From positions 62,001 to 126,000 of the forward strand of contig JAAVVG010000025.1 of assembly GCA_012976225.1 (NCBI GenBank): 64,000 nt of DNA, written 5' to 3'. The position numbers were made by a program, and so were the translations under genes. The DNA is from Golubevia sp. BC0850 (taxonomy: Eukaryota; Basidiomycota; Exobasidiomycetes; Golubeviales; Golubeviaceae). The notes under the pieces are model-generated. The model did no database searches. It saw nothing but the letters and a program-made list of their open reading frames with translations, and was not told where the DNA came from. Of this stretch, positions 46,299 through 52,662 are shown piece after piece (the first letter of the stretch is position 1; each line of letters starts with the position of its first letter).

Positions 46299-48523
46299 AT
46301 GTCTACTCACCCAATCGAAACCATCTTCCCATCTTCAACTTGGCATTTCATTGAAGACAAGTTCTCTCCTCACGCAAAGGACCTTTTAGCTAAAGTTGTC
46401 AACTTCGTCCTAGTCAGTATTCTCATCCCTTATCCCTCTTTCCTATTCCTCTACCCATCTCGTCATCTCATCCTGGCTTCTATTCCCTCCTTCTTCTCTC
46501 TCAGAACGAATGTCAGCCAGCAGAAAAGACTTACGTTGCTCAAATTTCAGAAGATCCAGCCAAACGTTGGACAACGATTCCACCCATTCTAGAAGACTTA
46601 AAGAAGAAAGCTAAGGCTCAAGGTTTATGGAATTTGTTCTTGTCAAAGAAGCATTACCCAGATGTCGGAACCGATTTGACTAACTTGGAATATGCTGTCA
46701 TGGCTGAGGTGATGGGAAGAGGTCATCATTTCACTGCTGAAGCCATGAACTGTAGTGCTCCGGATACTGGTAACATGGGTGAGTAGAATGGAATCAGATG
46801 AGAGCTGAGAACAATGGGAAGAGGAGAGGTCTTGGGGAAGGAGAGGGACAAGCGGGGTTGGGAGGGTTGCAGGAAGAAGCGGATAAAGGATGACCGAGTG
46901 AAGGTCTATTTCCTTCCTGGATGGCAGGATGGAATGAGACTCTGGTAAATACTGATTGCTCTTTCCACTACCCTTATCTTAAATCAGAGGTCTTCGCCAA
47001 ATACGGAAATGCCGAACAGAAGAAGACTTGGCTCACTCCTCTCCTCAATGGAGAGATTCGCTCGTGAGTATTCTCTCCTTTCCTTCCATCTCTTCGGATT
47101 TTGGGATCTTCTTGCCAAAGAAAATCTTCTTTCGAAGGGTTTGGAGATCTATGGAGTTGAATGAGAGCCTCCTGGAGCGTTTCTACTGACTAACCAAGCC
47201 CCTCCTCTCCTTTCACTTTTCCAGAGCTTTCGCCATGACCGAACCTGGTCTAGCTTCTTCCGATGCCACCAACATTCAACTTTCCATTCGTCAAGAAGGA
47301 GACGAAATCATTCTTAACGGACGTAAATGGTGGATCTCTGGAGCTGGAGATCCACGTTGTGCAGTTCATTTAGTAATGGGAAAATCCGATCCAAACAACA
47401 CTAACAGACACAAGCAACAATCTCTAGTAATTGTTCCAAGCAACACTCCAGGAATCAAGGTTATCAGACCAATGAAAGTTTTCGGATATGATGATGCTCC
47501 AGAAGGTCACTGTGAAATATCCTACGACAACGTCAGAGTTCCTCTAAAGAATTTAGTTAAAGGTTGGGGAGCTGGATTTGAGATTATCCAAGGAAGATTA
47601 GGTCCTGGAAGAATTCATCATTGTATGAGATCTATTGGAACTGCCGAATCTGCTTTGGACGCCTTTTTGAGAAGAGCTACTGATCAGAGAAAGAAAGCTT
47701 TCGGAAAAACTCTTTCTGAACATGGAACCATTGTGGCTGGGATTGCTATGTCTAGAATGGAGATCAACCAAGCTAGATTGTTGGTTCTAAACGCTGCTAA
47801 TGAAATTGATAGATCTACTGCTAAAGGTGCTATGAGAGATATTGGAATGAGCAAGGTCATTGTTCCTTCTATGGCTCTTCAAGTTGTTGACCGTTCTATG
47901 CAAGGTGAGTAGGTCGTTTTGCCTCTGATGATCTATTGCTGTCTTTCTGACACCCTTGTTAATCCTTTCTTTACTTTCTATTTCTATTCTCTTCATCTTC
48001 AAAAGCGTGAGTGGTGCTCGAAGATCGTAGAAGCGCTTGGTATTGTCCACTTCATCTCACTTTAACCCTCTCCCTCTCTAACCCTCTTCTCTTCTCCTAC
48101 CACTCTACTTCTGAACACTTTTGATGCCATCGATCTATAGTCGTGAGTATGCTCTCTCTGACAGGCATTAGGTTTGTTGTCTACTTGATCTGACTTTGAT
48201 GTTCTTCCCCTTCTCCTCTCCCTCCTCTCTCTCAGACGGAGCTGAAGGAATTTGTCAGGATACTGATCTAGCTCAAGCCTGGGCTGGATTGAGAACTCTA
48301 CGCTACGCTGATGGACCGGATGAGGTTCACATTCAGCAGATTGGAAAGCAAGAGGTGAGTTCGTCCCATGTCCCTTTCATCATCATTCTTTTCTGACCAA
48401 TCTTTCATTGTTCCTTTCATTTTACAGCTTCGTCGTGCCACAGCCCTCTGGGACACTTACAAACAGACTGAGGTTAAGTCCAAGGCCCTTCTAGAGAAGC
48501 ACGGTCTTAAGGCTCACCTTTAG
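46299..48523 (+). CDS. acyl-CoA dehydrogenase with 1-nt and 2-nt microexons
   Basis: Exons are 46299-46412, 46505-46778, 46988-47063, 47225-47904, 48006 (one base), 48141-48142 (two bases), 48236-48354 and 48428-48523, giving 453 residues. Domain order is that of the ACAD family closest to the ACAD10/11 type: [37 protein letters not shown] (FAD/substrate loop), [41 protein letters not shown], then [15 protein letters not shown] and [11 protein letters not shown]. It oxidises acyl-CoA esters in beta-oxidation, using FAD, in mitochondria or peroxisomes. Family members have two residues between Met-Gln and Gly; direct splicing of 47904 to 48236 would leave one (Asp), whereas including the two microexons gives Ala-His. 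Intron 1 has a GTCAGT donor. The substrate chain length is unknown. Confidence 0.85.
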
Positions 48524-49007
48524 ATAAAGATCAAGAATCAGGTTATCTCTTTTGCTAAATATCTACCAACTTCTTCGGATTGCCCGATGCTTCAGGCCAT
48601 AGAGGCTATGTCTTGTAATTTCGTCGCTCGCCCTTTTCTCAGAATGAATTCTCTTACGTCACTCATTGGTAATATGGTCTTTGAGCGCTGAGCCTTTGGC
48701 ACTGCTTTTCAGGTCTCTTCTCAACTTCCGAGTTCATGATGGTCGTTACCGGAGGTTTGTTCGCCCTCAGCGATCTCAGCAGGTCTCCGTTTCGCTATTT
48801 CTCGCCTTCCACTTGAGGCTTGCCTCGTGATGTCCATTGATCTATCCTTTTCGAAAGCGAAACAAACTGAGACCTTCTGGGAAAGAAGGCACGTATTATC
48901 GTTCGATTTGTAGCGTCTCGTTTTGACGAGCTAACATCCAACGTGAAGATTTTTTTCTTCTTCGATTCGACCTCATCGCCTCATCATCGACGCACTTCTC
49001 TCAAAGG
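48524..49007. other. intergenic
   Basis: 3' flank of the dehydrogenase and promoter of the zinc-ribbon gene; no further feature. Confidence 0.5.
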
Positions 49008-50315
49008 ATGCCTTCAGCATCACAACCTCAGACATCAAGTTCAGAAACTATGAGTCCATTCGGATCACTCGTCTCCAAGAACATCAAGGGCGGATCCAAC
49101 TCTTTAGAAGCATTAAGTAGAGAGGGATTTTCTCGCGTCTCGTCCATCACATTACCTCAACTCTCATCTATTCATTCATCTGAATTCCTAAGGCTGGCAG
49201 ATGAAGAGTCAGAGAACGGATCCATTTCTAAAAGGAAGGAAGGTACTAGGTTCAGAGGAGGACTATGGGGAGAAGGTTCGAAAGAATTTGAAGACCCGAA
49301 TGCTGCTTCTTCTAGTAGCTTTGGAAACACAACAGAGACTAGCAGCTCCTTTGAAGCTCTACCTGAATGGTACTCAATTCATAATCCTAGATGTTTAAGC
49401 TGCCTTAATCCTTTGATCAGAGGTTTAACTACTATCACGACGAATGATGAGAGTGTTCGAAAGACAGCCTGCTCTAATTGCGGCACTCAAGTTCCTAGAC
49501 CTATTCCTAATCAGGAAACCAAGAAGTTTTACCCTTCAGTCAGGAAGCGGAGAAAGATGGAAATCAGTGAATCTAGTGGGAAAGGCTATGAGCAGATTAG
49601 TGGGAGCTGGCAGAAGAACGTCGGATCCAACGCAATCATAGATAATGAGATGTCGACTATTGGGGAGAGTAATGAAAGTAAAAACACAGCTAGCATGGTG
49701 GAAGCTGAGATCACCAACGGGAAGGAAGACTACTTGAATGGCAACAAGACGCAAGAGATCAAGTCAAAATTAAAAGGGAAAGAGAAGGAATTCAACACCC
49801 CTCAGGTTTCTTTGTCTTCTCCAGCTTTATCATTAGAGGAAAGAAAGAAGCAAATGAAGAGCCTTCAGAGTCAAAGAAAAGCAGAAGAGCTGGAAGCCGG
49901 GCCATCTAGTGGATCGCAATCGGTTTCCAAGTCTTCCAGAATCGATCCTTCAACTCCGAACCACTCTTCTACCCAATCCATTCCTTCTATTGATCTAGAA
50001 CCACAGAAAATCTCTGAACTGTCAACTTCGGCTCCCTCCTCAACCACTAAACCAGCCAGCAAGCTCGATCAGAAAACTTCCAAAACTCCAAACAACCTTT
50101 CTTCTTCCTCGCTATCTCCTTCAGCGCCTTCAACATCACAGAACTTACCTTCAGCAGCTTCAAATCTCAATTCTCGTCGCAAGAAACCAGGATCGAATCA
50201 GAAGTCAGACCTGAAGGCTCTATTGATGAAGGACAAGTTGAAGAAAGAAGAGGATGAAAAAGAGAAGAAGAAACGAGAGGGTGGGGGGTTGAGAGGGTTT
50301 TTGGATCTGCTGTGA
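49008..50315 (+). CDS. zinc-ribbon protein, Rpr2/Snm1-like
   Basis: Single-exon frame of 435 residues. In the middle (about residues 125-165) it has SIHNPRCLSCLNPLIRGLTT, then ACSNCGTQVPRP: two Cys-x2-Cys knuckles about 25 residues apart with a Pro-Leu-Ile-x-Gly-Leu-Thr spacer, as in the Rpr2/Rpp21/Snm1 subunits of RNase P and RNase MRP. Those proteins bind the catalytic RNA and help process tRNA and rRNA. The rest is disordered and Ser/Lys-rich; the C-terminal end (LKALLMKDKLKKEEDEKEKK to LRGFLDLL) resembles the charged tail of fungal Snm1. The fit is by motif only, so it may be another zinc ribbon. Confidence 0.55.
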   Translation: MPSASQPQTSSSETMSPFGSLVSKNIKGGSNSLEALSREGFSRVSSITLPQLSSIHSSEFLRLADEESENGSISKRKEGTRFRGGLWGEGSKEFEDPNAASSSSFGNTTETSSSFEALPEWYSIHNPRCLSCLNPLIRGLTTITTNDESVRKTACSNCGTQVPRPIPNQETKKFYPSVRKRRKMEISESSGKGYEQISGSWQKNVGSNAIIDNEMSTIGESNESKNTASMVEAEITNGKEDYLNGNKTQEIKSKLKGKEKEFNTPQVSLSSPALSLEERKKQMKSLQSQRKAEELEAGPSSGSQSVSKSSRIDPSTPNHSSTQSIPSIDLEPQKISELSTSAPSSTTKPASKLDQKTSKTPNNLSSSSLSPSAPSTSQNLPSAASNLNSRRKKPGSNQKSDLKALLMKDKLKKEEDEKEKKKREGGGLRGFLDLL

Positions 50316-50735: not shown

Positions 50736-52662
50736 ATGTCCACTGAAGCTCAACCAATCACTCCAGCTCCCCTCGTAGCCGGAGAGGTAAAGAACGTCGA
50801 AGACCCCTGCAAGGTGAGTAAAATCAGATGCAATCGGAAACCATAGGAGCGCCTCACTTGCTGAGGAGAGATGTAGGACGGTGGAAAGAGCAGAAGGAAG
50901 AACGAAGGACAAGGGTAGTCATGGCCCCTCTCCTCCCATGTTCATCAACATCCTCTCCTTCTCTCTCTTCTTTCGACTCTGACTGTATTCTCTATTCGAT
51001 AGGTCTTTGCTGGTGAGTTTGACTGCTTGTTGAGAGTTCTGCGCTGCCCCTTCCCATCACTCTCCTTATCACTCCTCACCCCGCTCCCTTCGCTCAACTC
51101 CTTCTCCTTCTCATACACTCCCATTTCTTTCTCTAGGTAACCTCGCTTTCTCAACCACTGACGCTGATGTCAAAGAATTGTTCTCAGTCGCTGGTACTGT
51201 GTGAGTAACAGCGCTGCACGATCTTATCCTTGATGTCGGACTTAGCTTTGAGGGAGGATACGTCGGACGAAAGGGACCCTCCTTGCTTTCTATCTTTTTG
51301 CCATGCAAATTGAATCTTCTTGCAAAATCACAGTGGTTTCGCCCGACGCTACCCCAAGTTCTACCTCCCGCTTTCTCACTCTTGCTCTTCTCCTTTCTCT
51401 TCTATCCTTCCTTCTGTCCCTTTTCCATTTCTCCAAACAGTACCGAGGTCTCTTTGATTACCAGAGGAACTCGTTCTCTAGGATACGGTTTCGTCACCTT
51501 CTCCACCGAGGCTGAGGCCAAGAAGGCAGTTGAGACCTTAAACAAGAAGGAAGTTGGTGGAAGAGAAATCAATGTTGAGGGAGCTAGACCTCAGAACGCA
51601 CTCCCAGCTAACGGATTGAAGAAGAAATCCAACAACAAGAAGAAGGCTGCTGGTGTGAGTAATCATACCTTGGAAGGGAGATGAGTCGGAGGTGGGGAAG
51701 GATAAGAGGAAGGTAACGGCGATAAAGAAGGGAGTTGGAAGAGCTCGCATCGAATGAAACGATCTATCTTACGCTACTAGCTCAAGATATGCTTAGCTTG
51801 TATAGAGCTTCAGAAGAGAGAGAGAGAGAGTCTATTCGACTCTGTCCGAACTACAGACCCAATCCTTTCTTGCGTCTCATCCATGAATTGCTGACTGATC
51901 ATTCCTTCTCTCCCCTCTTTCCATCTTTATACAAATATGCAGGCTCGTGCCCGTCGTCCTCGTAACGAGCAAGGAGAGGAAGGTGGAGAGACCGCTGGAG
52001 AATCAGCTGCTGAAGGAGTTACTGAAGAAGTCAACGGTGAAAGCAAGAGTGCCAAACGTCGTAACAAGAAGAAGACTTCAGCCGCCAAGAAAGCTCTTGA
52101 AGGAGAAGCTGTTGAAGGAGAAGTTCCAGCTGAAGGTGCTGCCGCCAAAGCTAAGAAGCCAGCTGCTAAACGTCCTCTAAGACCAAAGGTCGCTCCAACT
52201 GGAGAACCATCAAAGACCTTACTCTTCGTTTCAAACCTTTCTTTCTCCATTGATGACGAGAAATTAAAGGGAATCTTCTCTGATTATAAGGTTAAGAGTG
52301 CTACTGTTGTCAAGCAGAAGTTTGGAAACCAGAGATCTAAAGGTTTCGCTTTTGTTGACTTTGAAACTGAAGAGGATCAACAGAAAGCTTTGGCTAATGA
52401 ACAAGGTAGAAGTGTTGAGGAGAGAGCTATCCAAGTTAAAGGTGAGTGAAAGAAATTTGATAGGGAGACGACAGTGACCTTTCGAGCTTTCAAGGGTGAA
52501 AGTGCCTTGTTTGTAACAGGCCTTGACTGACAAAGATTCTCCTCTATTTCTTCCCTTCTCTTCATTCTTCCAGTCGCTCTTCAAGACAACAAGAAGGACG
52601 ATGAGACCAAGCCTGCTGAGGAGACCGCTGCCAACCCAGCCGTCGAGACTCCTCTAGCTTAG
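50736..52662 (+). CDS. two-RRM RNA-binding protein (Rnp24-like)
   Basis: Exons are 50736-50813, 51003-51012 (10 bases), 51137-51200, 51441-51654, 51943-52441 and 52574-52662, giving 317 residues. RRM1 (about 27-105) has KVFAGNLAFSTTDADVKELF and SLGYGFVTFSTEAEAKKAV; RRM2 (about 210-290) has TLLFVSNLSFSIDDEKLKGI and SKGFAFVDFETEEDQQKAL, both with RNP1 and RNP2 motifs. A Lys/Ala/Glu-rich linker (KRRNKKKTSAAKKALEGEA) joins them. Similar proteins (fission yeast Rnp24, nucleolin/Nsr1 relatives) act in RNA processing in nucleus or nucleolus. The 10-base exon encodes VFA plus one base of Gly inside RNP2, and the frame cannot be kept without it. Introns are long for this window. Confidence 0.85.

Follow-up and report, generated by a model that had tools for sequence, protein, structure and literature searches.

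The question raised by this locus is whether a coding gene can contain an exon of a single nucleotide followed directly by an exon of two. The gene encodes an acyl-CoA dehydrogenase of the ACAD10/11 type and lies on the forward strand at positions 46299–48523 of the window, the whole 64,000-nucleotide stretch of DNA analyzed from Golubevia sp. BC0850. The genome comprises 25.8 Mb in 64 contigs, of which 264 kb were used for several of the scans described below. From the ATG to the stop codon, introns included, the gene spans 2225 nt, and the in-frame model yields a protein of 453 aa. Exon 1 (46299–46412) begins with the ATG at 46299 and is followed in the model by exon 2 (46505–46778), exon 3 (46988–47063), and exon 4 (47225–47904). 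The next full exon occupies 48236–48354, and the last coding exon (48428–48523) ends with the stop codon at 48521–48523. With the interval between exon 4 and the next full exon counted as one, the introns measure 92, 209, 161, 331, and 73 nt, and on the same count their donors are GTGAGT in four cases and GTCAGT in one.

The Pfam N-terminal, middle, and C-terminal domains (PF02771, PF02770, and PF00441) all scored above the cut-off. The best PDB match to the last two thirds of the protein was ACAD11 (2wbi, E 2e-83). The nearest named homologue among the matches listed came from Pseudozyma flocculosa (75% identity), and the nearest named ones in these matches belonged to smut-type basidiomycetes. 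Directly downstream of the gene, at 48927–50315, there is an open frame of 462 aa, rich in serine and with two CxxC pairs (CLSC and CSNC). Two further open frames at 51034–51684 contain what appear by eye to be pieces of an RNA-recognition motif (LGNLAF and GYGFVTF) and are probably parts of a single intron-containing gene.

The unusual part of the gene is the 331-nt interval. Exon 4 ends with ATG CAA G, that is, with Met-Gln in phase 1, and the exon at 48236 opens with ACGGAGCT, read as AC GGA GCT, after an intron end of CTCTCTCTCAG. Joining 47904 directly to 48236 keeps the frame and leaves a single residue between Met-Gln and Gly-Ala (MQ-D-GAEG), exactly as the original prediction had stated. 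That prediction placed three introns and two microexons here, and its anatomy was recovered in full. Intron a (47905–48005, 101 nt) runs from GTGAGT to AAAAG, with a branch candidate CTGAC at 47947–47951. It is followed by the candidate 1-nt microexon C at 48006, in the context AG-C-GTGAGT. Intron b (48007–48140, 134 nt, GTGAGT to TATAG) has a branch candidate CTGAA at 48111–48115 and leads to the candidate 2-nt microexon TC at 48141–48142, in the context AG-TC-GTGAGT. Intron c (48143–48235, 93 nt, GTGAGT to CTCTCAG) has a branch candidate CTGAC at 48190–48194; the exon behind it would complete a His codon and continue with GAEG. Each of the two microexon contexts occurs once on the forward strand within the interval. 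Both candidates are thus flanked directly by an AG acceptor and a GT donor, and the neighboring introns are of viable length. The distance from branch candidate to acceptor is 55 nt in intron a, 26 nt in intron b, and 42 nt in intron c; in the other introns of the gene, it is 31–35 nt, the first intron having no such candidate.

The spacing of the Met-Gln/Gly segment was inspected in a set of 267 homologues, the best listed of larger sets from three protein searches. Exactly two residues separated Gln from Gly in all 255 of the listed matches in which a pattern search placed the motif, in line with the predicted family requirement, and the one-residue orthologues that would have spoken against the prediction were looked for among them and not found. 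The inclusion of the microexons is therefore needed for a conserved protein, as judged from these 255 homologues. Of the other 12 proteins, three open with the motif's Met and likewise have two residues (AH, VH, and LH), one (P0121) ends in the intron, six stop before the segment, and in P0168 and P0267 the motif was not resolved. The ACAD11 chains and a bacterial relative among the PDB matches listed aligned to a query with XX at this place and showed no gap there, their residues being VC, VH, VH, and IH. Among 120 listed homologues, the pairs included SF (44), AF (22), AH (19), VF (7), and VY (1). The suggestion that His is often found here held for the nearest homologues, where AH is the usual pair, but Phe is the commoner second residue among the 120. 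Adding AH raised the PF00441 score from 83.5 to 97 bits. In acyl-CoA dehydrogenases, this segment presumably lies close to the FAD site of the neighboring subunit, which would account for the strict spacing.

These data bear on the simplest alternative, namely, that the whole 331-nt interval (47905–48235) is removed as one intron, the MQ-D-GAEG form having arisen by a 3-base deletion beside the acceptor, natural or introduced in assembly, and the AG-N-GTGAGT sites being due to chance. It would demand a one-residue form without a counterpart among the 255 listed homologues, and Asp where the tabulated homologues show His, Phe, or Tyr. The splice sites were scored against a reference of 49 introns, obtained from 66 predicted ones after the removal of 14 with GTAGTN donors (a loose pattern) and of three from the gene itself; the 66 came from a looser prediction that replaced a strict-threshold set of 38. 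A single intron would use the two outer sites of the interval, an acceptor at the 100th percentile and a donor at the 47th. Its length is also within the range of the genome, since 15% of the 66 predicted introns have 300 nt or more, and the sequence around the junction is rich in C and T, a setting that makes a small deletion or an error in the consensus plausible.

The inner sites gave a mixed picture. GTGAGT is the main donor among the predicted introns (42 of the 66), and when 19 GTs of the interval were scored, the donors at 47905, 48143, and 48007 ranked highest. With C before GT, the inner donors fell to the 12th and 18th–20th percentiles of the 49 references, and two undisputed donors of the same gene were equally low (12th for the one at 46412, 18th for the one at 47063). 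Against this reference set, which is biased to pyrimidine-rich acceptors, the acceptor before C, ending in CTTCAAAAG, was at the 12th percentile, and the one before TC, ending in ATCGATCTATAG, was below all 49 (0th percentile). An unused AG before 48165 scored above both of them. The weakness of these acceptors, above all of the one before TC, speaks against the microexon reading.

We then enumerated all ways to obtain two residues between CAA and GGA, chaining any donor (GT or GC) with any AG acceptor and requiring every intron to measure 40 nt or more. Four paths were found in the interval. The first uses C and TC with three perfect GTGAGT donors and gives GCT CAC (Ala-His); the second also gives Ala-His, via a GC donor (GCTTGG); the third includes ATC at 48024–48026 with the donor GTAGAA (Asp-His); and the fourth includes TAT at 48148–48150 with the donor GCTCTC (Val-Tyr). 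Only the C and TC path, which restores MQ-AH-GAEG as predicted, has all its donors within one mismatch of GTGAGT. Allowing introns of 20–24 nt added two more paths (AN and VH), both with poor inner donors. A single intron with shifted boundaries was rejected, as no such solution yields two residues; exon 4 cannot extend beyond 47904 because the reading GGT GAG TAG stops. C and TC must be included or skipped jointly because either of them alone shifts the frame. An exon of three nucleotides, ATC or TAT, in place of the pair accounts for two of the four paths, and Val-Tyr does occur in one of the 120 homologues listed. We consider it very improbable: the donors GTAGAA and GCTCTC are poor, both acceptors score negative, and neither exon produces the Ala-His of the nearest relative.

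This relative, P0001, was the best of 8000 scored homologues. It is of equal length (453 aa) and identical at 408 of 453 positions (90%), and it reads VIDRSMQAHGAEGI, with the segment SMQAHGAEGI, that is, with the Ala-His predicted by the path through C and TC. The contig encoding it has 1512 nt, less than the 2225 nt of the Golubevia gene with introns. A second protein, P0121 (225 aa, from contigs of up to 2705 nt), was the top match when exon 4 served as the query in its open frame, which continues past the exon end and terminates in the intron as MQGE. P0121 agrees with P0001 at each of 223 residues and closes with GE (SMQGE-stop) where P0001 has AHGAEG. This end matches the read-through of exon 4 into intron a as GGT GAG TAG and fits the exon 4 boundary. 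On the simplest reading, P0121 and P0001 would derive from a single gene of a sister species, the former unspliced and the latter spliced; the intron of that gene, to judge from the protein letters, would start at the same base as intron a. A search for the downstream exon of the relative gave 28 fragments, the best of them 77% identical and none evidently its own, so the Ala-His of the relative could also derive from one intron ending in AG followed by CNCAY.

The uniqueness of the strong-donor path, the Ala-His of P0001, and the end of P0121 at the exon 4 boundary together support the microexon interpretation: the interval very probably consists of three ordinary U2-type introns around the candidate exons C and TC, which complete GCT CAC. 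For Golubevia sp. BC0850 itself, the splicing of C and TC is predicted from the genome sequence. Removal as one intron appears improbable next to these data, since it leaves to chance two perfect donors that yield exactly the Ala-His of the relative, and the remaining protein matches P0001 in length.

How much chance could contribute was estimated in several ways. In the 64-kb window, AGNGTGAGT had 3 matches versus 2.55 expected, and AGNNGTGAGT had 10 versus 2.43, a number reached in none of 100 shuffles; of these ten, at least the one at 48351 simply marks where an ordinary exon ends. Each motif alone is uninformative, and what is unusual is their combination. Control intervals were generated with the dinucleotide statistics of the interval itself (Markov intervals, for which the training included both candidate sites, a choice that favors chance) or drawn, with overlaps, from the 264 kb of the genome. 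With perfect donors, two or more microexons were found in one of 200,000 Markov intervals, not as Ala-His, and in none of 200,000 genome intervals, so that a two-microexon Ala-His solution was absent from all 400,000. Single microexons with perfect donors gave Ala-His in 10 Markov versus 0 genome intervals and any family pair in 140 versus 229 (200,000 each). When one donor mismatch was allowed in 20,000 Markov intervals, Ala-His appeared in 14 and any family pair in 139; many of the "any solution" cases in this control may be trivial acceptor shifts. Calculated analytically from a model that excluded both sites, the expected number of ordered pairs that encode Ala-His and have perfect donors was about 7e-9. 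Among the 49 predicted reference introns (7,728 bases), an internal GTGAGT was present in two, and AG-N1..3-GTGAGT in none. These figures apply to one interval chosen after the fact; the window may contain, by our own estimate, roughly a hundred introns, and a post hoc choice among so many does not overturn the conclusion.

There was no sign of a genome-wide class of such exons, a further point against the microexon reading. Counts of the AG-N{k}-GTGAGT spacing in 264 kb were not elevated for k = 1 or k = 2. A strict genome-wide pattern for 1-nt exons, which would not match the acyl-CoA dehydrogenase site either, had 5 matches versus 19 in the reversed control. The best-looking of the five by eye (L037, 1501–1533; G000:C62:433329–433361, minus strand) was rejected as an ordinary exon start, AG followed by AGTGAGTATG. 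It has AG-N-GTGAGT, a branch motif, and a pyrimidine tract and is nevertheless ordinary, which calls for caution in microexon searches based on patterns alone. A coding-frame scan of 264 kb for single exons of 1–12 nt, which cannot build a pair, revealed no other microexon. The sole chain that it returned, at the acyl-CoA dehydrogenase locus, joined TC to a wrong acceptor (48427) and was discarded as no confirmation. The origin of the three introns by duplication was also rejected; the repeats they share are short and CT-rich.

If C and TC are exons, introns a, b, and c would probably be removed successively by intron definition because an exon of 1–2 nt can hardly hold acceptor and donor complexes simultaneously. 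The removal of intron a would join C to exon 4 and leave a normal donor, AAGC/GTGAGT, after which b and then c could be excised; the reverse order would be equally workable. At each step, the donor and acceptor would be complete beforehand, and each tiny exon would turn into the terminus of an ordinary exon as soon as an adjacent intron has been excised. Skipping both microexons would keep the frame and lose a residue, and skipping one would shift the frame. A spliceosomal twin intron, also excised stepwise and with nothing kept in between, resembles this scheme, as the stwintrons of fungi are likewise neighboring introns removed in steps (PMC5639578). It is the least probable of the alternatives, however. 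The three GTGAGT donors and the AG acceptors are each contiguous in the DNA, no splice element is interrupted by another intron, and removal without retention would give the one-residue form. Nor does the site correspond to recursive splicing with a reconstituted donor, as defined in PMC6224609, as the donors here are complete before splicing. Returning to the two-microexon arrangement, we suggest, tentatively and as a possibility somewhat short of probable, that three introns within four coding bases (G/C/TC/AC) form an obligatory succession of a 1-nt and a 2-nt exon that is shared with the sister species, evolutionarily stable, and a minimal natural substrate for stepwise, intron-defined splicing.

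In Candida parapsilosis and its relatives, single-base exons occur in non-coding snoRNA host transcripts, and nested and zero-exon recursive splicing was described in the same snoRNA cluster, with ordered or alternative pathways visible in RNA-seq (PMC5033589). These are likewise fungal spliceosomal introns with a one-base exon between them, but in non-coding transcripts of ascomycete yeasts, whereas the bases considered here complete codons of an enzyme and comprise a 1-nt and then a 2-nt exon. The single-nucleotide exon of Arabidopsis APC11, for which Guo and Liu favor stepwise intron definition (PMC4674806), also lies between normal introns of a nuclear coding gene; it is only one microexon, and in a plant. 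Plants have 1-nt microexons with GTRAGT donors in APC11 and VPS55, as well as adjacent microexons of 5 and 12 nt (PMC8831610, PMC11096116), a pair that totals 17 nt versus 3 nt in the Golubevia gene. A plant survey mentions microexons shorter than 3 nt in general terms, so isolated exons of 2 nt may well have been reported already. In the mitochondrial cox1 of placozoans, a His codon is assembled from a lone C and the first two bases of the next exon (PMC5436844), and in Ophiostoma mitochondrial rnl a one-base exon lies between two introns (PMC12308204), but both cases are organellar and involve group I or group II rather than spliceosomal introns. Functional microexons were said to be undescribed in filamentous fungi before a 2024 study of Trichoderma Xlr2 (PMC11121469). 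That gene and the P450 genes of the basidiomycete Phanerochaete (PMC1184071) share with ours the presence of microexons in fungal coding sequence, the shortest exon of the P450 genes being 6 bp. Stwintrons (PMC5639578) differ in that the Golubevia gene keeps exonic bases between its introns and has uninterrupted splice sites. Searches of the text of open-licence papers brought up no description of a 1-nt exon followed directly by a 2-nt exon. Annotation misses such exons silently because skipping both preserves the frame. If true, a 1-nt exon followed by a 2-nt exon in an enzyme gene would extend the limits of how small an exon the spliceosome can handle, would allow questions of splicing order and steric constraint to be addressed with a construct only a few hundred bases long, and would place this arrangement among the most extreme described.
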